Source of the DNA: an uncultured Burkholderiales bacterium
Lineage (GTDB): Bacteria > Pseudomonadota > Gammaproteobacteria > Burkholderiales > Burkholderiaceae_C
DNA length: 64,000 nt
Direction of reading: 5' to 3'
NCBI GenBank assembly: GCA_903876885.1
Contig: CAIRBP010000032.1
Span: 1-64,000 of the forward strand
Each line of letters opens with the position of its first letter. Position 1 is the stretch's first letter. Shown here piece after piece: positions 1 to 10,199 of the stretch. Position numbers and translations under genes: made by a program. The notes beneath the pieces were generated by a model. It did no database searches and was not told where the DNA came from. It saw nothing but the letters and a program-made list of their open reading frames with translations.

Positions 1-812
1 CCCAGCTGGTAGTTTACGAATGAAGCCATTCCGCAGACCCGAAAGTTATCCTGCCCTTTAACCAAATTAGCAGTTCTTGTAAGGAGGACACGGGCGTTAG
101 CGTTAGCGTCTGCTTCACTCCCGCCCTTACCGTAATACTCGACCAAACCAAGGTTAAATATTGCGGGTGGATAGTTCTTGGAGGCTGCGGCTTGGTAAAG
201 GGAGGTTGCTTGCTGGATATTTCGATGAGTTCCGAATAAACCAATTTCATAAATCAAGCCCACAAAATTCTCGGCTTCTGGAACACCACTCTTGGCTGCG
301 TTTGCGATTGAATTCAACAGAGTGCTCTGAATCTCACCTTTTGCAGTTGAAAGAGCGCGGATTTTGTCGATTACCTCTGCTCCCTGGGGGGAGACAGTGA
401 TATGAGCTCCAAATTTAACGGAGTTAACTGTGCGGGGAAGACGGGCTTTAACTTTGTCTAAAAGATTTCCTTCTGTGCTGGCCTCTTGAACTGCCAAGGC
501 AGCCCTTTGTTTCTCCTCGGAAATGGAGACATTAAAAGTAGCAGAGTTAGTCATCTCCTTGGTTGGGAGAAGTGAGGGGCCAACGGTTGTTGGGAGAGCG
601 TTTATGGTGCTTTGTGCTTTGGACTTCCAATCCGCTGTGGAGTCTGTAATGGTTGGGGAATTAACGAGTGCACCAATAGGATTAGAGTAAGAATCCATAT
701 ATTGGATAGTCTGAGGGGTCTGAGTAGTTCGAGTAGGTTGTGCAGTCACGCCCCAAGAGGTCGAAAAAAGACAGAGAGAACTTATTAGAAGTGTATTGGA
801 GGAGTATGTCAT
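1..812 (-). CDS. Sel1/TPR-like repeat secreted protein, C-terminus runs off the window
   Basis: Reverse-strand frame open from ATG at 812 to window edge (MTYSSNTLLISSLCLFSTSWGVTAQ... signal-peptide like; ...ATSLYQAAASKNYPPAIFNLGLVEYYGKGG is Sel1-like). Missing from ORF track because it is partial. Confidence 0.75.
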   Translation of the reverse strand, partial: MTYSSNTLLISSLCLFSTSWGVTAQPTRTTQTPQTIQYMDSYSNPIGALVNSPTITDSTADWKSKAQSTINALPTTVGPSLLPTKEMTNSATFNVSISEEKQRAALAVQEASTEGNLLDKVKARLPRTVNSVKFGAHITVSPQGAEVIDKIRALSTAKGEIQSTLLNSIANAAKSGVPEAENFVGLIYEIGLFGTHRNIQQATSLYQAAASKNYPPAIFNLGLVEYYGKGGSEADANANARVLLTRTANLVKGQDNFRVCGMASFVNYQL

Positions 813-879
813 GAATTCTTTAAATATACTGTATTATGCAATGAATTACATAAATAGCATAAACAATTAACTTTATTCA

Positions 880-2412
880 ATGAATACAAATCTAATAGAT
901 AGTCCTGAATTTGTAAAAGTGTCGAATTACTTTGATCAGCTTACTGAGATTGAGGCCAATAAGATTTTGTTGGTGAACGTGACACGAAAAAATGAGGCAT
1001 TGCTCAGAAAAATCATTATTTACACCATCATCAAGGGCTTTAGTGACATTCACATCGAGATAGAGAATACCAGTAGCGGGCATGAAACCAACATCTTCGT
1101 CAGAGACGGAGATGATTTCCAGGGCGTAGAGAATTTGAATGACAAGAGTAAGGAAATTAAAGAAAGACTTTTCTCGCTCTGTAATTTTATGGGTGGTGCG
1201 GTGGAGGGGGTTAACTGGTCAGCTAGCTTTAAAGTCCAGTTGCCTGCGGATGTTGCCCTGCATTTTGGGCTAAAACCTTTTGAAGGACTACCCTACTCTG
1301 TTAATTTCAGGGTTGAGTACATAGAGACGTTTTCAGGGATTGCATTTACCTGCCGTCTGATTGATCCCCAAACAACGCCAAAGTTTCAAGACCTAAAGCT
1401 ACCCAAGTTACTGAGTGAGACGATCATGGAGATTTGCCGAGCCCCTAGTGGTTTCGTTGTGATCTCTGGTCCAACGGGTTCGGGTAAGTCGACCTTGCTC
1501 AACGCAATATTTCAGGCTTTGAATGATGGTTCCAAATCTGTAGTCACGATCGAGAACCCTGTCGAATTTAAGATATTTAAGAAAGGCGCACCTGTTAAGC
1601 AAATCCAGGTGAGAGGAGAGATCACATTCTCAAGCGCACTGAGAGCAACACTAAGACTTGACCCTCAACTCATATTGGTTGGGGAGATAAGGGACTTCGA
1701 GACAATGGACGCCGCTATTGAGGCGGCTAATACGGGGCACTTGGTATTTGCAACCGTTCATGCCAATGATGCACACAACACTTTGCAACGCATGAACCAG
1801 CTAAAAGCCGATGCATTCAGACTCTCAGAGAGTTTGACACTGGTTTTGGCGCAAAGGTTGTTGACTACTTACGCAGGGCCTGGTGTCAAACGTGAGTTAA
1901 CGTTTGATGAGAAAGCGTGGCTCGGTAAGAACGGCATCTACATGGATCACATTACGGAGAACATGGGACCTAAATGCGGGAAGGTTCCTGTTATTGAGGC
2001 GATTGTGATGGACGCAGGTGTTAAGAATGAGATTCGCAAAGGAGAGAAGATTGATACGTTAGCAGTTTACAAAGCTGCCAGACACCAACATACCTATGAA
2101 TCGATGGTTTCATTCGGGGTTAGGTGCGTCCTTGACCACGGCTGTAGGCTCTCCCAGGTTCAACAAAGTTTAGAGCAGAATCCCCATGCTAAAGAGTTTC
2201 CAGGATTCAGGGTTGAATTGGCCCGGAAATACGGAGTATCCCTATCGGATGTTTCATTATCCATAGAAGACTACTATGCCAATAGAAACCAGGATACGCA
2301 AGAGAGCTTGGAGGAGACCTTAAACGATAAGTTCGGTTACGTACCTAACAACATTACCCCCTTAGTTCCACGGGGGGTGTTGCCACCCTCTTCGCATCAC
2401 AACCTTAGATAG
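880..2412 (+). CDS. GspE/PilB/PilT-superfamily secretion or pilus ATPase
   Basis: Walker A GPTGSGKST, Asp box/Walker B LDPQLILVGEIRD, His box TGHLVFATVHAND; no CxxC zinc motif seen. Confidence 0.88.
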   Translation: MNTNLIDSPEFVKVSNYFDQLTEIEANKILLVNVTRKNEALLRKIIIYTIIKGFSDIHIEIENTSSGHETNIFVRDGDDFQGVENLNDKSKEIKERLFSLCNFMGGAVEGVNWSASFKVQLPADVALHFGLKPFEGLPYSVNFRVEYIETFSGIAFTCRLIDPQTTPKFQDLKLPKLLSETIMEICRAPSGFVVISGPTGSGKSTLLNAIFQALNDGSKSVVTIENPVEFKIFKKGAPVKQIQVRGEITFSSALRATLRLDPQLILVGEIRDFETMDAAIEAANTGHLVFATVHANDAHNTLQRMNQLKADAFRLSESLTLVLAQRLLTTYAGPGVKRELTFDEKAWLGKNGIYMDHITENMGPKCGKVPVIEAIVMDAGVKNEIRKGEKIDTLAVYKAARHQHTYESMVSFGVRCVLDHGCRLSQVQQSLEQNPHAKEFPGFRVELARKYGVSLSDVSLSIEDYYANRNQDTQESLEETLNDKFGYVPNNITPLVPRGVLPPSSHHNLR

Positions 2413-2415
2413 ACC

Positions 2416-3102
2416 ATGTATAAACGAAATCTATTAATTGGACTTCTAGCGGCTACAGCGATTAGTTCGTTCGCTCAGACTAATGAAGCCCGTATTACCC
2501 AAGTAAACACAGCCACTGGGTCTGGTCCAACTGCATCTTTAAAGCCATACCTAGAAGTTACGCCCTATAAGCCAGACGCTAATGCGGTAAGGATTTTCTT
2601 CTCACCGACTTGTATGTATTCACGAGAGTATCTGAGCTTCTTTAAGAACCTAGATACTACTTTGAGTGCGAAGACCGCAAAAACTACAATCTTTACCCCA
2701 ACAACGAATTTTGTTGACGGAATTAATTATGCGATGGCATTTGCAGCTGTTCGAAGATTCCATCCTGCCTATCTTCAAAACTTTATTGAAGCGAGTATGA
2801 CCGCATCACAGGATAAGCATATTAATGTATTTGGTTGGGCTGGAATTGAAACTGTTGGAGCTGCTGTGGGATTTGGGAAATCAAAGCAAATACCTGAATC
2901 TTTGCCTTTACTAGTTTCAAAGAATAAAGTAATCTTGTACAAGGATGTTCAAGAGTATCAGGCAGCACAAAAGGCGTTACAAATCATAGGAACACCTTCA
3001 GTTGCAGTTGTAGGGACTTATGTGATTTCACCTGAGTTCACACTAGGGGATGCCGATAGGTTTAGCGAATTAATTAATGCTGTTGTTTCAATGACTTTAT
3101 AA
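2416..3102 (+). CDS. DsbA/thioredoxin-fold periplasmic protein with CMYS instead of CxxC
   Basis: Signal peptide, FFSPTCMYSREY active-site-like motif and GTPSVAVVG cis-Pro loop; 3 bp downstream of the ATPase gene. Confidence 0.65.
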   Translation: MYKRNLLIGLLAATAISSFAQTNEARITQVNTATGSGPTASLKPYLEVTPYKPDANAVRIFFSPTCMYSREYLSFFKNLDTTLSAKTAKTTIFTPTTNFVDGINYAMAFAAVRRFHPAYLQNFIEASMTASQDKHINVFGWAGIETVGAAVGFGKSKQIPESLPLLVSKNKVILYKDVQEYQAAQKALQIIGTPSVAVVGTYVISPEFTLGDADRFSELINAVVSMTL

Positions 3103-3121
3103 TAGTTCTAGAAATCATCAA

Positions 3122-3203
3122 TTAATAAGCACCGCCATTGGCATGAATCGTCTGACCAGTGATATAACTTGCCTTCGCACTATACAGTGAGCCCGATGGT
3201 GCA
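3122..3203 (-). pseudogene. C-terminal relic of FabG/PhaB-like short-chain dehydrogenase
   Basis: Reverse translation APSGSLYSAKASYITGQTIHANGGAY* matches the conserved SDR C-terminus (S.YITGQTIHVNGG.Y) with no upstream SDR body. Confidence 0.75.
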
Positions 3204-3465
3204 AACTTAAAGTCAACTATTCAATAAGTGTTGCACAGTAGTCGCTTACTGATTTAATAGAAAATAAGGAGTAATAAAAAAAGACATCCTGCCAACTTGA
3301 AAACTAATTAAGCAGTCTCTAACTACATTAATAAATACTTAAATCCTGTCAGACTTAGTGGACTTTATTGGCTGTAACAAAGCTACAGCTCTGATGATAT
3401 GCTTTGAGTAGTCTAGCTTCCCACCTGCTCAGGCATGCATTGTTATGTATTTTTGCGAAAAAACG

Positions 3466-4380
3466 CTAGTTCCAGTTAAGCTCACTGCCAATTTTTCTTT
3501 TGAGAAGCTGTTCGAAATGAAGAACTTCAGACTTTGTAGTTGGACCTCTTGGAGTAACATGGTGTATGGAGTACATAAAATTCTCACAATGAGTTGGGTC
3601 TAAGTCAGTCAGCACAACCAGACCTTTGTTACCATTATTCCCCGTCTTGACATACCCAGACCACCGCCCCCAAATTCCTCCAGAACCATCTCTATCAGAG
3701 TAGGCAGAGCCAACATAGCGCTGATTGGTCTTTTTGTCCAATATTAAGTAAACTCCGTCATGTCCAGATAAAAAGCGATGCCAATCTTTATTACCCTCTG
3801 GATTATTGATTAATCCCCGTAACATTTGATGACTAATAAATACATTCTCCCATCCTGGAAAATCAGATATAAAACCTTTTGGCATTATTTCCGAAATTTC
3901 TTTATTTATTTGCTTTTGCACCCAGCTTACTGTTGAACCGCCCCAATCAATTATTAATCGGTTTTGAAATTCACTTAGCACATCGCTTTTTTCAAGTTCG
4001 AAATAAAAATGGTCACCCTCATTTACAGCAATATTATTTTCGTTTCTGAAATCGCAATATTCCTTATACTTCGGGTGCAAGGAAGTAAATCTGTCTTTAG
4101 AAACTATTCCTTTCGAAGTGAATCCACCTCTAAATAGGCAGCGACCACCTTCTGTTGCAACAAAAACCAATATTAGCTCCGAATCTTTATATTTATTCTC
4201 AGATTGCTCTGCAGTAAAAATGAGTAATAAATCGTTGTCGAATTTAAGTCTCTCATCAAACCCAGCCCAATCACCATCAGTTCTATTTTTCATGGTGTGA
4301 CGGACTAGCCTGATCTTGTTTCTTGCAATTAAATGCTCAACTTCAGGATTCACTACCCGCAATAACTTTTCTAAATTCAT
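3466..4380 (-). CDS. GIY-YIG nuclease-family protein
   Basis: GVYLILDKKTNQRYVGSAYSDRDGSGGIWGRWSGYV resembles the GIY-YIG core (GVY...YVG...R); N-terminal domain not recognised. Confidence 0.75.
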   Translation of the reverse strand: MNLEKLLRVVNPEVEHLIARNKIRLVRHTMKNRTDGDWAGFDERLKFDNDLLLIFTAEQSENKYKDSELILVFVATEGGRCLFRGGFTSKGIVSKDRFTSLHPKYKEYCDFRNENNIAVNEGDHFYFELEKSDVLSEFQNRLIIDWGGSTVSWVQKQINKEISEIMPKGFISDFPGWENVFISHQMLRGLINNPEGNKDWHRFLSGHDGVYLILDKKTNQRYVGSAYSDRDGSGGIWGRWSGYVKTGNNGNKGLVVLTDLDPTHCENFMYSIHHVTPRGPTTKSEVLHFEQLLKRKIGSELNWN

Positions 4381-4412
4381 TTAAGATTAGTTCGCAAAAA
4401 TAATTTGTGGGA

Positions 4413-6068
4413 CTAGGCTACAGAAACAGTCTCTCCCCTTTCGCGTATGCCCTCTATCCAAGCACCAAGCCAACTCAAGTCTAAGTCACTGGCTAGATCT
4501 ACTCGATACCCACATTCAGTGCCCCCACCGAACTGAAGGTATCGCACTTTTACTTGACGACTGGATACAACAGAGTAAGGGAAAAGTGGCTCACAAGGTT
4601 CAACAGCTTCACTAAAGTCAAAGGTATATGTGAATTGCCACATATTATCTTCCTCAGCTAAAGTTTTGCTAATAGCGTCAGTGTTGGAAAATGATATGCC
4701 GTCATAATCTTTCAATCGGTATAACGTCATTTCATCATAATTTTCAAGAAAAATACCCGGATCATCAATGCTTTCCTCTTCTGAAGAAATTTGAACGGAG
4801 CCATCAATTATGAATGAACCAGTAGAGCCATCCGGGAACCAGGTGTCATCATTAATTGTCGAAATCAAAACAGACATTTGATAGCCTAAGGATTCTTTAT
4901 TTACCCCGTCCCAATCAGGGACATCATCTGCATCACTATCAATAGCACTATCCTCGCTGATATGTTCCGTAGAAACTTTCTGATTTTCGTCCTGAAGTTG
5001 ACTGAGGAAATCAACGGCTCGTTGAGGGACCTTATCAACTTTACGCCATTTTTCGATTTCGTTTAAGGAAATCTGAAAGTGATTGGTGACTCGGTCTAAC
5101 CCAATACCTTGATCAAAGAGTTTTTTATACCATTCATCAAATGACATGGAGCTGAAAATCTCAACTACAGAATCGGTGGCGGATTTATTAAGCGAATTTA
5201 AAAATAAGATCGCACTAGGATGTTGTAGTGATGCAGCCTGTTTCATCCAGGCTATCCCGGCCTGATAATGAGAGTCACCATCAGCAGAGGATTGCTCAAG
5301 CATCAATTTACCTAATTGATATTGACTATTTAGATGTCCTCTATTTGATAACTCATCTAACAATTGACTCGCTTTGCTCAAACTCCCTGCCTTAAGCAAT
5401 TCCAAGGCTCTTTGATACATTTCTTCAGTAGGATCTTTAGACTCGGTCACGGGAACTATCGGAGCTATAGTCTGGACTTTTCTAGTCTCTTGCAAATCTA
5501 TCATCTGTTGAGACTCATCACTACCAGAAGTTTTCTTTCTATTCCTAAACACCATGAATATAACTGCCATAATTGCCGCAACAATAGCTGCAACAAATCC
5601 TGATCGAAAAGAAGATTTATTATCTTCTGATGAATTTTTTTCAGTTTTTGAGCTGTCACCTGAAGACTTAGGCTGCACCTGCTCAACAGTATTCATATTA
5701 TTTTGAGATGGAGCTACAAAGGAACTTGACGCAATATTATCTGGAGGATTTTGTAACTTTTTATCTAAATACTGTATTCGATCATAAAACATTGGCTTTA
5801 AGCAGGAGGCTATAGCATCAATATCGCCGTTACATTGCTTTAATGACTTCAACCACTCCCTTTGCTCCTCTTTTACACCTGGATTTACCTCATATTCTTT
5901 AGCGTAAGCTGAAGCCAACTTATCATCAAGCGCAGATAATTCTGGATCAATACAGATAGCCTTATCTATTGGTCTTACTGCATTAGTGCAATCGAAGCTT
6001 GCCGCATAAGTCAAAACAGAAAACAATAAAAAAACCCAGAATAAAATAAATTTACTTTTATTGTTCAT
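4413..6068 (-). CDS. Membrane protein: LprI-like N-terminal domain, one TM helix, Sel1-like repeats, unknown C-terminus
   Basis: Signal peptide; FDCTNAVRPIDKAICIDPELSALDDKLASAYA is LprI/DUF1311-like; TM FVAAIVAAIMAVIFMVF followed by RNRKK; Sel1-like MYQRALELLKAGSLSKASQLLDELSNRGHLNSQYQLGKLM. Confidence 0.75.
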   Translation of the reverse strand: MNNKSKFILFWVFLLFSVLTYAASFDCTNAVRPIDKAICIDPELSALDDKLASAYAKEYEVNPGVKEEQREWLKSLKQCNGDIDAIASCLKPMFYDRIQYLDKKLQNPPDNIASSSFVAPSQNNMNTVEQVQPKSSGDSSKTEKNSSEDNKSSFRSGFVAAIVAAIMAVIFMVFRNRKKTSGSDESQQMIDLQETRKVQTIAPIVPVTESKDPTEEMYQRALELLKAGSLSKASQLLDELSNRGHLNSQYQLGKLMLEQSSADGDSHYQAGIAWMKQAASLQHPSAILFLNSLNKSATDSVVEIFSSMSFDEWYKKLFDQGIGLDRVTNHFQISLNEIEKWRKVDKVPQRAVDFLSQLQDENQKVSTEHISEDSAIDSDADDVPDWDGVNKESLGYQMSVLISTINDDTWFPDGSTGSFIIDGSVQISSEEESIDDPGIFLENYDEMTLYRLKDYDGISFSNTDAISKTLAEEDNMWQFTYTFDFSEAVEPCEPLFPYSVVSSRQVKVRYLQFGGGTECGYRVDLASDLDLSWLGAWIEGIRERGETVSVA

Positions 6069-6207
6069 GCTAGTCGGTACTCCTTAAACGTGCGCAAAAG
6101 TGTAGAACTGATTTTCAAGTCTTAGCTACGACGAAAGTAATATCTCAATTTCCACCGGGCTTAGAGGTAAATCGCTTATACAAGTATAACTAACTATTTT
6201 TGTTTTA

Positions 6208-6250
6208 ATTGCGATTGATTAACAGCTAGTCAGGCCTTAACAATCGCAAT
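6208..6250. repeat. Perfect 10-bp inverted repeat ATTGCGATTG...CAATCGCAAT
   Basis: Arms 6208-6217 and 6241-6250, 23-nt spacer, noncoding. Confidence 0.85.
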
Positions 6251-6789
6251 AGTGCTTATCTTACAAATTATTATTACTTAATCAGTAATTAAAGTCAAAC
6301 CTATCATTTTTTAACGAGGCTACGCCAACCTCTCTGCAATCGTAATTGACATTAATTCGTTTATATGTTTTACATGCACTCCTGCAATATTACTAATTTA
6401 TTTAATTGAATTTTGCTTATCCGTTCCTGCCATCAGTTCTTGAGTTGCAGAGGTATGGCGAAAGATATACAAGGTACACTTTTCATTAAGCATGTAAGTG
6501 TGTCTAACGTTTAGGAACAACCGTCTTATTTGTTAGGCTGAAAACTGATGTGATGACCGTGAACTTCTCCATTAACCTCATTTTTGTATTTATTAACTGG
6601 CACTTAATCAATAGGGCTTCCTGACAATCATCCCGAGAAGACTTATGGAGCTCTGTGTGATCCTTGGGCTTTAGTGCTCTCAGCAGTTTCCATAGCGATT
6701 TCATAAACCCCAGCATCACAACGACATTAAAGCCAGTTCAGTTACATACACATTAAACAGAAAAAAAATGTAATCAAAGATTTAATTAT

Positions 6790-7074
6790 TCATGGAATCG
6801 GATCATAGCCCTCTCCGAGCAATCCAATCTTATATAAATAGGCATTTACTTCCACGTCAGATGCACCATCCAACACAAAATCTGAAGATGGAGTTGGAGA
6901 CGCTCCTTCAGGGCTAATCAATTTTGACCTCAGGTTGTATAAGCCGCTTGCTTGCCCCCTCAAATGCTCCGCTTTATGGGCAGAGCTCCAGTCCCCAGCT
7001 CTCGCCGCTGCGTCCCTTATAACCCTCAAGTCTTCAAGGTGCTCTTCTAAAGTAATAGTTGGAGAATTAGTCAT
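6790..7074 (-). CDS. Small phage-related protein, possibly terminase-small-subunit-like
   Basis: HLEDLRVIRDAAARAGDWSSAHKAEHLRGQASGLY resembles the RAEELRGKAxGLY motif seen in some phage terminase-small-subunit-like proteins; weak. Confidence 0.45.
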   Translation of the reverse strand: MTNSPTITLEEHLEDLRVIRDAAARAGDWSSAHKAEHLRGQASGLYNLRSKLISPEGASPTPSSDFVLDGASDVEVNAYLYKIGLLGEGYDPIP

Positions 7075-7361
7075 CTTCTCGTCCCTGACTTGTCAAAATA
7101 TTTTTTAAGTGGCTTTTCTTCAAAGATATTATTCCCAGTTTTCTCATCAAGTTTTTTTAGACTAAGCACTATTTCCGAGCCAAGTGCTTTGAGTCTAAGG
7201 TTGATTTCGTCAATATAAACTCCATTGTTATGTTGAAAAGCTAAATATATTTCATCAGTAATTTTTCTAAACTCTATTTCTTCGATCTCCTGCTTTTTGA
7301 ATAATTTAGTGTATTCGGAATGTCGTAGACGTCTTTTTAGATTTGATTTGTTTAATCTCAT
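7071..7361 (-). CDS. Hypothetical small protein
   Basis: 96-aa ORF with 4-bp ATGA overlap with the next gene, same strand. Confidence 0.55.
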   Translation of the reverse strand: MRLNKSNLKRRLRHSEYTKLFKKQEIEEIEFRKITDEIYLAFQHNNGVYIDEINLRLKALGSEIVLSLKKLDEKTGNNIFEEKPLKKYFDKSGTRR

Positions 7362-7431
7362 TTTTTATCCCATATATTAGAAAATCTCGATAATTGGCGA
7401 CTGAGATGGACTGTTAATCATTGCAAAGTCA

Positions 7432-7998
7432 CTACCCGCCTTTACTCTGCTTTAGATATTCACTCTGTTCAGCATTTTCTTCTTCAAAGCCCTTAAGCCA
7501 CTCTTTGTGCTCATCTGTAATACCTTCCTTACTGATAAACTGAATTGATTTGATTGAATTTGAATTAATTTGACTTAAAGAACCTTCAGGTATACCTTGA
7601 GGTTTACCATCAAGTACCCCATTAAGGTATTTGGCATTTACTTTCTTGATGGCAGCCCCCAATTTCCCTCCATCAGACTGCGCTTGTCGAGTTAGAGTCA
7701 CATTACTCTTGTATCCATCTAATTCAGGACATCTCATTTGATCTCCGTCCACGACAAAGTAGCTGAGCACCCGAGGAGTCAGAGAATCCATGATCGTTTT
7801 CTCGTCATAGCCAAAATATCTAGCTAGCTCACTCGGATTTCGAGGCAGGAAATTATTAACCCAGTATTCGTTATAAAGAGTCCATAAAACCCCCCTTTCG
7901 GGGAGACTCATCAGTTTGAACCTCCTATCAGAATTCCAATTCGCGCTGTAGTTGTAGAAGTAAGGAAGAGGCTTTAAGACTTTTTGAGATTTATCCAT
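7432..7998 (-). CDS. DUF1376-like phage/mobile-element replication-associated protein
   Basis: FKLMSLPERGVLWTLYNEYWVNNFLPRNPSELARYFG...GGKLGAA fits the DUF1376 pattern; start chosen at MDKSQKV (track start 8022 overlaps upstream gene). Confidence 0.65.
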   Translation of the reverse strand: MDKSQKVLKPLPYFYNYSANWNSDRRFKLMSLPERGVLWTLYNEYWVNNFLPRNPSELARYFGYDEKTIMDSLTPRVLSYFVVDGDQMRCPELDGYKSNVTLTRQAQSDGGKLGAAIKKVNAKYLNGVLDGKPQGIPEGSLSQINSNSIKSIQFISKEGITDEHKEWLKGFEEENAEQSEYLKQSKGG

Positions 7999-8341
7999 TA
8001 TTCTTTCTCCTCGAATTACCACAAATCAAATCTAAGGCATTTGAAATATTTTCGGGCTCAGGTTTAAGCCAATAGCGCTTTACAGAGATTGTTGCCTTTC
8101 CCCCCAAACACGGAACGATTTCAAATTTTCGATCTATCAAAATGCCGAACTTACCCAATGTCGCCACAGTTGAATTTAAACAATGATCGTTTAGTTTTTC
8201 AGCCTCAAAGCGATTAAGGGTATGTCCATCAAGGAATTGAATTAAAATGTTCTCGAGTTTGTTTTGTCTTTTCTTTAAATCAGGACAAGCTTTTACACAG
8301 GCCGTGGCTAGCCCCACGGCCTTTTCTTTTAAGTTGTTCAT
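7991..8341 (-). CDS. Winged-helix/HTH-like mobile-element protein
   Basis: LDGHTLNRFEAEKLNDHCLNSTVATLGKFGILIDRKFE...RYWL resembles phage winged-HTH proteins. Confidence 0.55.
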   Translation of the reverse strand: MNNLKEKAVGLATACVKACPDLKKRQNKLENILIQFLDGHTLNRFEAEKLNDHCLNSTVATLGKFGILIDRKFEIVPCLGGKATISVKRYWLKPEPENISNALDLICGNSRRKNNG

Positions 8342-8344
8342 GAT

Positions 8345-8560
8345 TCATACCTCCAGTTGCTGACTGGCTGCAATTCGAGAAATAACCCATCCTCTAACCT
8401 TACTTTGTTGCCATCGACGTATCTTCGAAGTTAATTTGATTGGCCTTGGGAACTCGCCATTTTTCATTAGTTGATAGATCGTCGATCTACCTAAGCCCGA
8501 TTCCTCTCCAACTTCATCTATATTTATTAAGGGATCGTAAGATTCAATAATTGCGGACAT
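8345..8560 (-). CDS. alpA: AlpA-family regulator/excisionase
   Basis: 71 aa; LGRSTIYQLMKNGEFPRPIKLTSKIRRWQQSKVRGWV is a typical AlpA HTH. Confidence 0.9.
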   Translation of the reverse strand: MSAIIESYDPLINIDEVGEESGLGRSTIYQLMKNGEFPRPIKLTSKIRRWQQSKVRGWVISRIAASQQLEV

Positions 8561-8579
8561 TTAGATACCTTTTCTAAAT
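8559..8579. promoter_or_regulatory. Perfect 7-7-7 inverted repeat over alpA start/RBS
   Basis: ATTTAGA TACCTTT TCTAAAT; reverse strand reads AAAAGG just before the alpA ATG. Confidence 0.6.
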
Positions 8580-8833
8580 GCGCTAAGTATTCAAATTAAA
8601 AATAGCATAGCGCAAAACACTCTGATCAAGGTGCTTTAGGCTACGCCCCAAGCAATAATGCTTACAGACGCTACTCTAAATTTAGTGACAATGTGGTCGT
8701 AACAATAAAGCTATGACATTAACAGTCAAACCCGCTAAGTTTTGTAAGTGATCTTAAAATCTTACTAGCTATACTCGTGGTATGTCTTGAGTCTATTACA
8801 CATTCGTGTATAAACTGATAAATTCATTTGGAT

Positions 8834-9997
8834 TTAAACAACAAGTCTGGATAAAGCCTCTTTTGAATGCTTTTGGGTCAAATGTCCATAATGCTTTTCA
8901 ATCATCATTATGCTGGTGCCTGCTAACTGAGCTACAGTTAAGGTATCCAATCCACCATGAACTAAGTCCGTAATCACTGAGTGCCTAATAGTTCCCATTG
9001 TTACGTTAGAGGGCAATTCAGCTTTTAATACTGCGGCCCTTATAGGGTCTTTCCATGCGTCTTTATTCCAAGTCATGCCATCCAACCTGGTGAAGATACT
9101 TGCCCCGGGTAGCTTGTCCTTGATTTTCAAATTAAACAAGTCCGCTGCTTCTGGAGGCAGGGATATTTTGCGATGGCGCTTAGTTTTATCTTTAAAAACG
9201 CTGAGCGTTCCAAAATTGCTATCGTAATTTCCTACAATTAGCTTTGCAATTGCCCCGCACCTAAGCGGTATCAAGCAGCAGCACTTAACGAAGTCAGCTA
9301 AATCTGGAGGACATGAAATATAAAGTTTTCTACGCTGGGCTAAATCTAAATAGGCCTCCCTTGCATGTTCAGCATTCTTAATTGGAACAAGCTTCCCTTG
9401 CCAGGCAAAATCACTTGTTATCAGTCCCTCTTTAAAAGCTAAATTAAGAGCAGAGCGCAAACAAGTCATATCCCTGTTCAACGTACTATCCTTTCGCAAT
9501 TCCCCCTTATTAGGGCCGCTTTCAGTTACTGTTTCTTCGAGTAGTTTTCGCCAGTCGACAAAATGGGATGGTTTTAGTTTGGTTACATCAAGTTTTGAAA
9601 GCTTCGTTTTGTAAACATAGCGCTTGAATCGAAGATGAGCATCATTAGCACCGGATTCATTTTTCTCATTCTTTTTATGAACAACGTACCTTTCGCAGAT
9701 ATTTTGAACTGTCAGCACTTCAGCAGTACCGCCACGCCCAAGATGTTCAAACCAATTTAAAGCATCTTTGCGGGCAAGTTCAAATCTTTCGTTATCAGGG
9801 CGTTCAGAGTAAGCTCCGAGCGTGATCTGGTGCCTTTTCCCGGTGTCCTTATCGCTAAATCTTGCAGAATACGATCCATCACTTGAAGTGCTCATTTTTC
9901 TGAAGCCCATGTAGCATCCCGCCATTAATTTTGTCCAATAGGGATCGCGCTTGGGTTTAAGTTTGTCTCGCTCTATTACCTTAGAAAAGGCTGTCAT
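8834..9997 (-). CDS. int: Tyrosine recombinase (site-specific integrase)
   Basis: C-terminal TIRHSVITDLVHGGLDTLTVAQLAGTSIMMIEKHYGHL; adjacent to tRNA 3' end. Confidence 0.93.
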   Translation of the reverse strand: MTAFSKVIERDKLKPKRDPYWTKLMAGCYMGFRKMSTSSDGSYSARFSDKDTGKRHQITLGAYSERPDNERFELARKDALNWFEHLGRGGTAEVLTVQNICERYVVHKKNEKNESGANDAHLRFKRYVYKTKLSKLDVTKLKPSHFVDWRKLLEETVTESGPNKGELRKDSTLNRDMTCLRSALNLAFKEGLITSDFAWQGKLVPIKNAEHAREAYLDLAQRRKLYISCPPDLADFVKCCCLIPLRCGAIAKLIVGNYDSNFGTLSVFKDKTKRHRKISLPPEAADLFNLKIKDKLPGASIFTRLDGMTWNKDAWKDPIRAAVLKAELPSNVTMGTIRHSVITDLVHGGLDTLTVAQLAGTSIMMIEKHYGHLTQKHSKEALSRLVV

Positions 9998-10031
9998 AAA
10001 TCCCTTAGTAGCTAGGCTCCTTTCCCAATAT

Positions 10032-10078
10032 AGTATGGAAAAAGTATGGAAAACCTAGTGGGATTATTATGGATTATT
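10032..10078. repeat. Short direct repeats between int and tRNA-Val
   Basis: AGTATGGAAAA tandem x2 (10032-10053), then GGATTATT-AT-GGATTATT (10061-10078). Confidence 0.85.
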
Positions 10079-10122
10079 GCGGACTTAAAAGATAGTACCA
10101 AGAGCCCTGTCAGAGGGAAACT

Positions 10123-10199
10123 TGGTAGGCGCGAATGGACTCGAACCATCGACCCCCACCATGTCAAGGTGGTGCTCTAACCAGCTGAGCTACGCGCCT
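10123..10199 (-). tRNA. tRNA-Val(GAC)
   Basis: Reverse strand AGGCGCGTAGCTCAGCTGGTTAGAGCACCACCTTGACATGGTGGGGGTCGATGGTTCGAGTCCATTCGCGCCTACCA; cloverleaf folds, anticodon GAC, CCA encoded. Confidence 0.97.

Follow-up and report, generated by a model that had tools for sequence, protein, structure and literature searches.

A candidate phage-satellite-like element at tRNA-Val(GAC) with a protein resembling the oligomerisation segment of phage TerS

Described satellites and the tRNA-Val(GAC) element

Gram-negative phage-inducible chromosomal islands (PICIs) of the EcCICFT073 type are small elements flanked by attachment sites that carry an integrase, an AlpA regulator, a replication gene and, optionally, a gene of the terminase small subunit (TerS) type, with no virion genes (PMC6092414). 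In E. coli PICIs, the Rpp protein reproduces the half of TerS that binds DNA, and it assembles with TerS into mixed complexes (PMC6739421). PICMI satellites have a minimal int-alpA-replication layout with no capsid-remodelling genes; they are integrated at fis in Vibrionaceae and encode a DUF3987/DUF5906 primase (PMC10803314). Here we describe a small integrative element at tRNA-Val(GAC) of an uncultured Burkholderiales bacterium, in a window that comprises bases 1–64000 of contig C32 (assembly of 2.22 Mb in 116 contigs, 68% complete). The element is best explained as a candidate phage satellite, a tentative reading to which we give slightly less than even weight, and its gene content suggests that it may travel by hitch-hiking in phages.

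As in Gram-negative PICIs, a direct-repeat attachment site is found at both ends, here a 49-bp core and a common arm site. The sole tRNA in the window (ARAGORN) is an intact tRNA-Val(GAC) at 10123..10199 on the minus strand that adjoins a relA/spoT-like gene, an order kept in the genus (six same-genus loci). The 3' 48–49 nt of this tRNA form the proximal attachment core (10122..10170, minus strand). Searching the assembly with the tRNA region identified a copy that is identical at 49/49 bp at positions 1954–2002 of a second contig, C2 (G000, locus L005), where it lies in the context of a tRNA fragment and is followed by a pobA-like gene (named by reading its translation). No further copy of the tRNA core in the assembly makes up an attachment site. 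A 21-bp sequence at 10032..10052, consisting of two tandem 11-bp units (2x AGTATGGAAA), has an exact match at C2:1843-1863 (AGTATGGAAA/AGTATGGAAA), 91 bp inside the distal core, and is a probable arm-type site of the integrase. Because the 49-bp core and the 21-bp tandem are common to both, the two ends are assigned to one element and to the same integrase.

An earlier note, made from the sequence alone, had confined the element to roughly 7 kb within 3204-10199. Neither the left boundary nor the extent held up: the far end is on C2, and therefore the element leaves the window at contig base 1. Position 3204 was rejected as a boundary, since it falls inside a 217-bp stretch (3095–3311) that is found in another species with different flanks, and the inserted DNA adjoins the island body at ~3299/3300. 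On the simplest reading, the original element would have comprised window positions 3300–10170 and C2:1400-2002, for a length of 7405 bp. The present copy appears to be longer, at least ~12 kb, and divided between the two contigs after insertion of a mobile module. It is seen in two parts, the left end of C32 and C2, with the middle absent from the assembly. G+C content is mostly 0.35–0.42 within the island and mostly 0.44–0.48 on its right side.

Going inward from the tRNA, one strand encodes an integrase, AlpA, a 116-aa protein, a DUF1376-like protein, a 96-aa protein and a 94-aa protein; beyond these are two larger cargo genes. Genes from alpA to the 94-aa gene are intact and form a compact operon with small overlaps and ribosome-binding sites. 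The tyrosine integrase (8834..9997, minus strand, 387 aa; PF00589 3e-7, phrog_1 2e-38) starts ~125 bp from the tRNA 3' end and has the R..HxxR..Y residues (by eye). It is followed by an AlpA-family regulator/excisionase (8345..8560, minus strand; PF05930 8.5e-12, phrog_2790 9e-11), so the element has the integrase and AlpA regulator of Gram-negative PICIs. The complete tRNA, the integrase near its 3' end, AlpA inward on the same strand, the 96-aa and 94-aa open reading frames (ORFs) and the cargo genes had all been reported in the earlier note, and all were confirmed.

The remaining operon genes were characterized with varying success. At 7991..8341, where a winged helix-turn-helix (HTH) protein had been proposed, the minus strand has an ORF for a small basic protein of 116 aa that gave no match in family searches; its homolog (54–56%) comes from another genus, in a same-tRNA element that resembles an integrative and mobilizable element (IME). 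The protein at 7432..7998 (minus strand), proposed as DUF1376-like, would be a weak call alone (PF07120 E 0.08, below the cut-off) and gains from a clear sister-species homolog (E 1e-21); primosomal families phrog_3992/9327 match at E 0.002, and we treat it as a putative replication protein. AT-rich repeats inside its gene, at 7541–7578, could be a replication origin. The 96-aa protein (7071..7361, minus strand; phrog_20350, of unknown function, E 3e-4) has a stop that overlaps the next start (ATGA). Its model is helical with low confidence, and a fold search gave no match. A strong GC-rich hairpin followed by T's (AGGCCGTGGCTAGCCCCACGGCCT TTTCTTTT) lies on the plus strand at 8299–8322, overlapping the 116-aa gene at its 5' end, and is a possible antisense terminator separating alpA from the rest of the operon.

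Description of the locus as a PICI-like island therefore stands in part. It is an int-alpA-replication island, and no capsid or tail genes were seen in the assembled parts, the middle of the element being outside the assembly. PICI membership is not claimed because a primase-helicase is absent from the parts seen, where a DUF1376-like initiator is found instead. The element also differs from Gram-negative PICIs in that its TerS-like protein has no HTH and its site is a betaproteobacterial tRNA-Val. It has the minimal layout of PICMI satellites, including, in the parts seen, the lack of capsid-remodelling genes, but not their site, primase or host family.

The 94-aa TerS-like protein

The 94-aa protein (6790..7074, minus strand) matched no curated family, even at E 10. 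When its N-terminal half was compared to 50,697 phage records (tblastn), the outlier was the TerS of Pelagibacter phage HTVC027P (E 0.01), with the next phage matches at E of at least 6. The HTVC027P protein itself matches phage TerS families. A piece of it, used as a query with no input from the 94-aa protein, identified the TerS of freshwater phage DSL-LC04, which matches the 94-aa protein at 48% over 46 aa. Hidden Markov models (HMMs) were built from phage TerS pieces, leaving out the 94-aa protein, and compared with decoys (7708 ORFs and 5000 shuffles). The HMM of DSL-LC04 TerS alone gave the 94-aa protein 32.7 bits versus 12.2 for the best decoy, and HMMs of two and three TerS gave 42–44 bits versus best decoys of 10–11. 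The protein was undetected by an HMM constructed from a same-family bacterial TerS (L105) alone.

In both phage TerS, HTVC027P and DSL-LC04, the HTH domain is immediately followed by the matched piece. Residues ~7–53 of the 94-aa protein correspond to the central helical oligomerisation segment (33–44 bits for the HMMs versus 10–12 for decoys), and the N-terminal HTH of TerS is absent, with the match beginning at residue 7 and the frame open for only ~6 codons upstream of the start. The protein begins at a start of its own and extends beyond the TerS segment as a tail. Because the similarity is confined to the segment after the HTH, the protein cannot be called an ordinary TerS. Modelling of the single sequence with AlphaFold (mean predicted local distance difference test [pLDDT] 67) gave helices at 9–25 and 29–53 and a short helix at 73–82. 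Foldseek comparison of the model with viral structures placed annotated TerS at ranks 1, 3, and 4 (E 0.05–0.16, probability 0.99–0.84); a fold search of the PDB yielded generic helical hairpins and nothing specific. From the sequence and the model we conclude that the protein carries a TerS oligomerisation segment without a DNA-binding domain. The TerS-like reading had been considered the weakest link and is now the best-founded call, with the qualification that the HTH is missing.

A profile of the TerS segment was searched against 400 genomes of the family, where the window and one training TerS alone gave scores above background; there was no match in G452 (same genus) or G443 (another species). 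An E 0.001 match in a family genome was rejected as a homolog of the 94-aa protein because it comes from a shadow frame in an oxidoreductase-like gene. Matches of the segment in Gordonia and Microbacterium phages were likewise discarded as chance-level and in different proteins.

Two described proteins are comparable. An HTH-less TerS of this layout is essential to packaging by the gene transfer agent RcGTA (PMC6854486); that protein, gp1, is alike in layout, being small and having two coiled-coil helices plus a third, but it is part of a gene transfer agent that has a capsid of its own. Like Rpp, the 94-aa protein is apparently TerS-derived and island-encoded and could form mixed complexes with helper TerS. 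Rpp, in contrast, is the DNA-binding half of TerS, whereas the 94-aa protein resembles the oligomerisation half.

A truncated terS is also what a decayed prophage would contain if an integrase, an excisionase and a replication protein were left with it after deletion of the structural genes. An integrase, AlpA, a DUF1376-like protein and a TerS fragment are all known from temperate phages (established knowledge and family matches), but the genes here are intact, with ribosome-binding sites, in a compact operon, and the 94-aa protein continues past the TerS segment from a start of its own. No remnants of structural genes occur in the parts seen, and a sister species also has the int-alpA-rep block. 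We regard decay of a prophage as improbable.

Transfer by helper phages or by conjugation

The satellite reading is preferred because of the attachment ends, the operon, the TerS-like segment, the int-alpA-rep block in a sister species, the UzuA cargo and the RcGTA precedent. AlpA would respond to infection by, or induction of, a helper phage and drive excision (as in PMC6092414 and PMC10803314), and the DUF1376-like protein would start replication, perhaps at the AT-rich repeats in its own gene. The 94-aa protein would then join the helper TerS ring or replace TerS, bringing helper TerL and the capsid to the element DNA; at a minimum, it might disturb helper packaging. UzuA would protect the host against other phages. 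The mobile module would have been inserted later, beside a 100-aa gene near the distal end. A more specific proposal, which we consider rather doubtful, is that of a betaproteobacterial satellite family in which an HTH-less TerS invades the helper TerS ring via its oligomerisation domain, mirroring Rpp, while DNA is chosen by another element protein (the 96-aa or the 116-aa one, for example) or with the relaxed specificity of gene transfer agents. If the 94-aa protein does act on helper TerS, it would represent a second strategy by which small islands hijack phage packaging, complementary to the first, and would provide a sequence handle for satellites in Burkholderiales, on which there is little in the literature searched.

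Several points weigh against a satellite. No helper phage, excision, replication or packaging was observed, and the assembly, which is incomplete, lacks the middle of the element. No primase-helicase (pri-rep) was matched among the genes seen. True full-length homologs of the 94-aa protein are lacking in the 400 family genomes and in the phage and plasmid collections, and the best Foldseek E for this protein is only 0.05, for a single-sequence model of pLDDT 67. Finally, a related element at the same tRNA carries a relaxase.

Relatives of the integrase (42–54% identical) were found in 25 other genomes among 400 of the family and in one further genome among 84 of the genus; a scan of the genome contigs with the integrase produced no match. 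A tRNA-Val core is located 122–163 bp from the integrase in 11 of the 22 relative loci examined. Parts of the gene block are conserved among them. The same-genus locus (L062, genome G452) has int-alpA-DUF1376-like order at the same tRNA, including the replication protein homolog, and thereafter its contig ends in a transposase-like gene. Locus L034 (G233), from another genus, is a complete ~5-kb element (2403–7414) between two tRNA-Val(GAC) cores, with int-AlpA-116-aa-type order. Its genes encode an integrase that is 49% identical, AlpA, a 54% identical protein of the 116-aa type and a Mob_Pre relaxase, making L034 a useful model for this tRNA-Val integrase family.

Orientation separates the window from these elements. 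In each of the 11 relatives whose integrase adjoins a recognisable core, the integrase is antiparallel to the tRNA, and the integrases of L034 and L062 are oriented opposite to that of the window, relative to the tRNA. In the window the two are parallel: the integrase adjoins the intact tRNA copy, and the core is inverted relative to it.

Because L034 has a Mob_Pre relaxase, the int/AlpA backbone is not specific to satellites; it occurs with a conjugation gene and, as far as seen, without one. L034 thus makes an IME the strongest rival explanation, in which the island is moved by conjugation, its relaxase or origin of transfer (oriT) having been lost or being located in the stretch outside the assembly, and the presence of the TerS-like protein would be incidental. 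The shared tRNA-Val(GAC) site, integrase, AlpA and 116-aa-type protein favor this explanation, as does a conjugation-associated ATPase/DsbC module in the left flank. That module is, however, a separate mobile unit that occurs elsewhere without the integrase. No relaxase is present in the ~12 kb seen, though the gap remains and oriT was not searched for, and a TerS-derived protein would be unexpected in an IME. We consider conjugative mobilization unlikely on balance; were it correct, one int/AlpA/tRNA-Val backbone would serve both modes of transfer.

The nested module and cargo genes

Window positions 1..3299 are occupied by a nested mobile module, outside the satellite-like core, that was delimited using family matches and copies in other genomes. 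It encodes a Sel1-repeat protein (3-812, minus strand), a GspE/PilB/TraJ-like ATPase (880-2412, plus strand) and a DsbC-like protein (2416-3102, plus strand). Three same-genus genomes contain this trio at unrelated sites in the chromosome, without the integrase and with ~69–75% DNA identity, and a Massilia plasmid carries a diverged version close to a gene annotated as traN. Part of the module is 97% identical to DNA of G443, and the 217-bp stretch at 3095–3311 is 97.7% identical there with different flanks, while the relA/spoT-tRNA region of G443 is just 75% identical to the window. Given 97–98% identity in the one case and 75% in the other, positions 1–3299 are considered a separate unit that moved recently.

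A 20-bp repeat (AAAACTAATTAAGCAGTCTC) at 3300..3319 has an exact match at C2:1400-1419, where it lies at the stop codon, in the 3' end of the 100-aa gene adjoining the distal attachment site. This direct repeat suggests that the nested insertion is flanked by it and entered the ~7.4-kb element beside the 100-aa gene. The island could instead be one end of a larger integrative and conjugative element (ICE) or prophage running off C32, with the ATPase/DsbC module a true part, since the module is contiguous with the island on C32 and the element certainly extends beyond the window edge. The recurrence of the module without the integrase, its much closer identity to G443 than that of the relA/spoT region, and the 20-bp repeat that marks an insertion all argue otherwise, and we hold a larger element to be very improbable. 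The module was also rejected as proof of an ICE, as it is a separate mobile unit.

The minus strand at ~3122–3193 encodes GSLYSAKASYITGQTIHANGGAY followed by a stop, which by eye resembles the 3' end of a FabG-type gene. The same fragment is found at the same position in G443, and it could be an attachment-site remnant of another element.

The left end of C2 contains an inverted repetition, with C2:1-162 an inverted copy of C2:1334-1495. Since this copy surrounds a palindrome, misassembly at the left end of C2 is possible. The palindrome (GAGCCTGTA...TACAGGCTC; L005 1-162 and 1318-1402) resembles insertion-sequence ends or a miniature inverted-repeat transposable element and is also present at the G443 copy. 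The inverted copy of the neighbouring gene end sits at the contig edge, and a similar palindromic end is found at L117 1714-1743.

Genes on the C2 side include a uracil-DNA-glycosylase-family protein (L005 203-877; PF03167 5e-10), extra cargo near the distal end and in the nested insertion. Proteins of 123 aa and 100 aa had no significant matches. The latter was considered as a packaging gene and rejected, having no match in any search.

The two larger cargo genes are in the window. One encodes a 304-aa UzuA-type anti-phage defence protein with a GIY-YIG nuclease domain (3466..4380, minus strand; PADLOC UzuA), matched by profile PDLC03973 at 2.4e-64 over residues 18–300; its plasmid homologs are annotated as GIY-YIG nucleases. 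The other encodes an unclassified membrane protein of 551 aa (4413..6068, minus strand) with a weak LprI-like N-terminus and a Sel1/TPR-like middle (phrog_4675/14799). An ORF adjoining tRNA-Val in genome G428 (L068 542-838) matches the N-terminus of the 551-aa protein at 47% over 101 aa, hinting at another island at the same tRNA-Val site.

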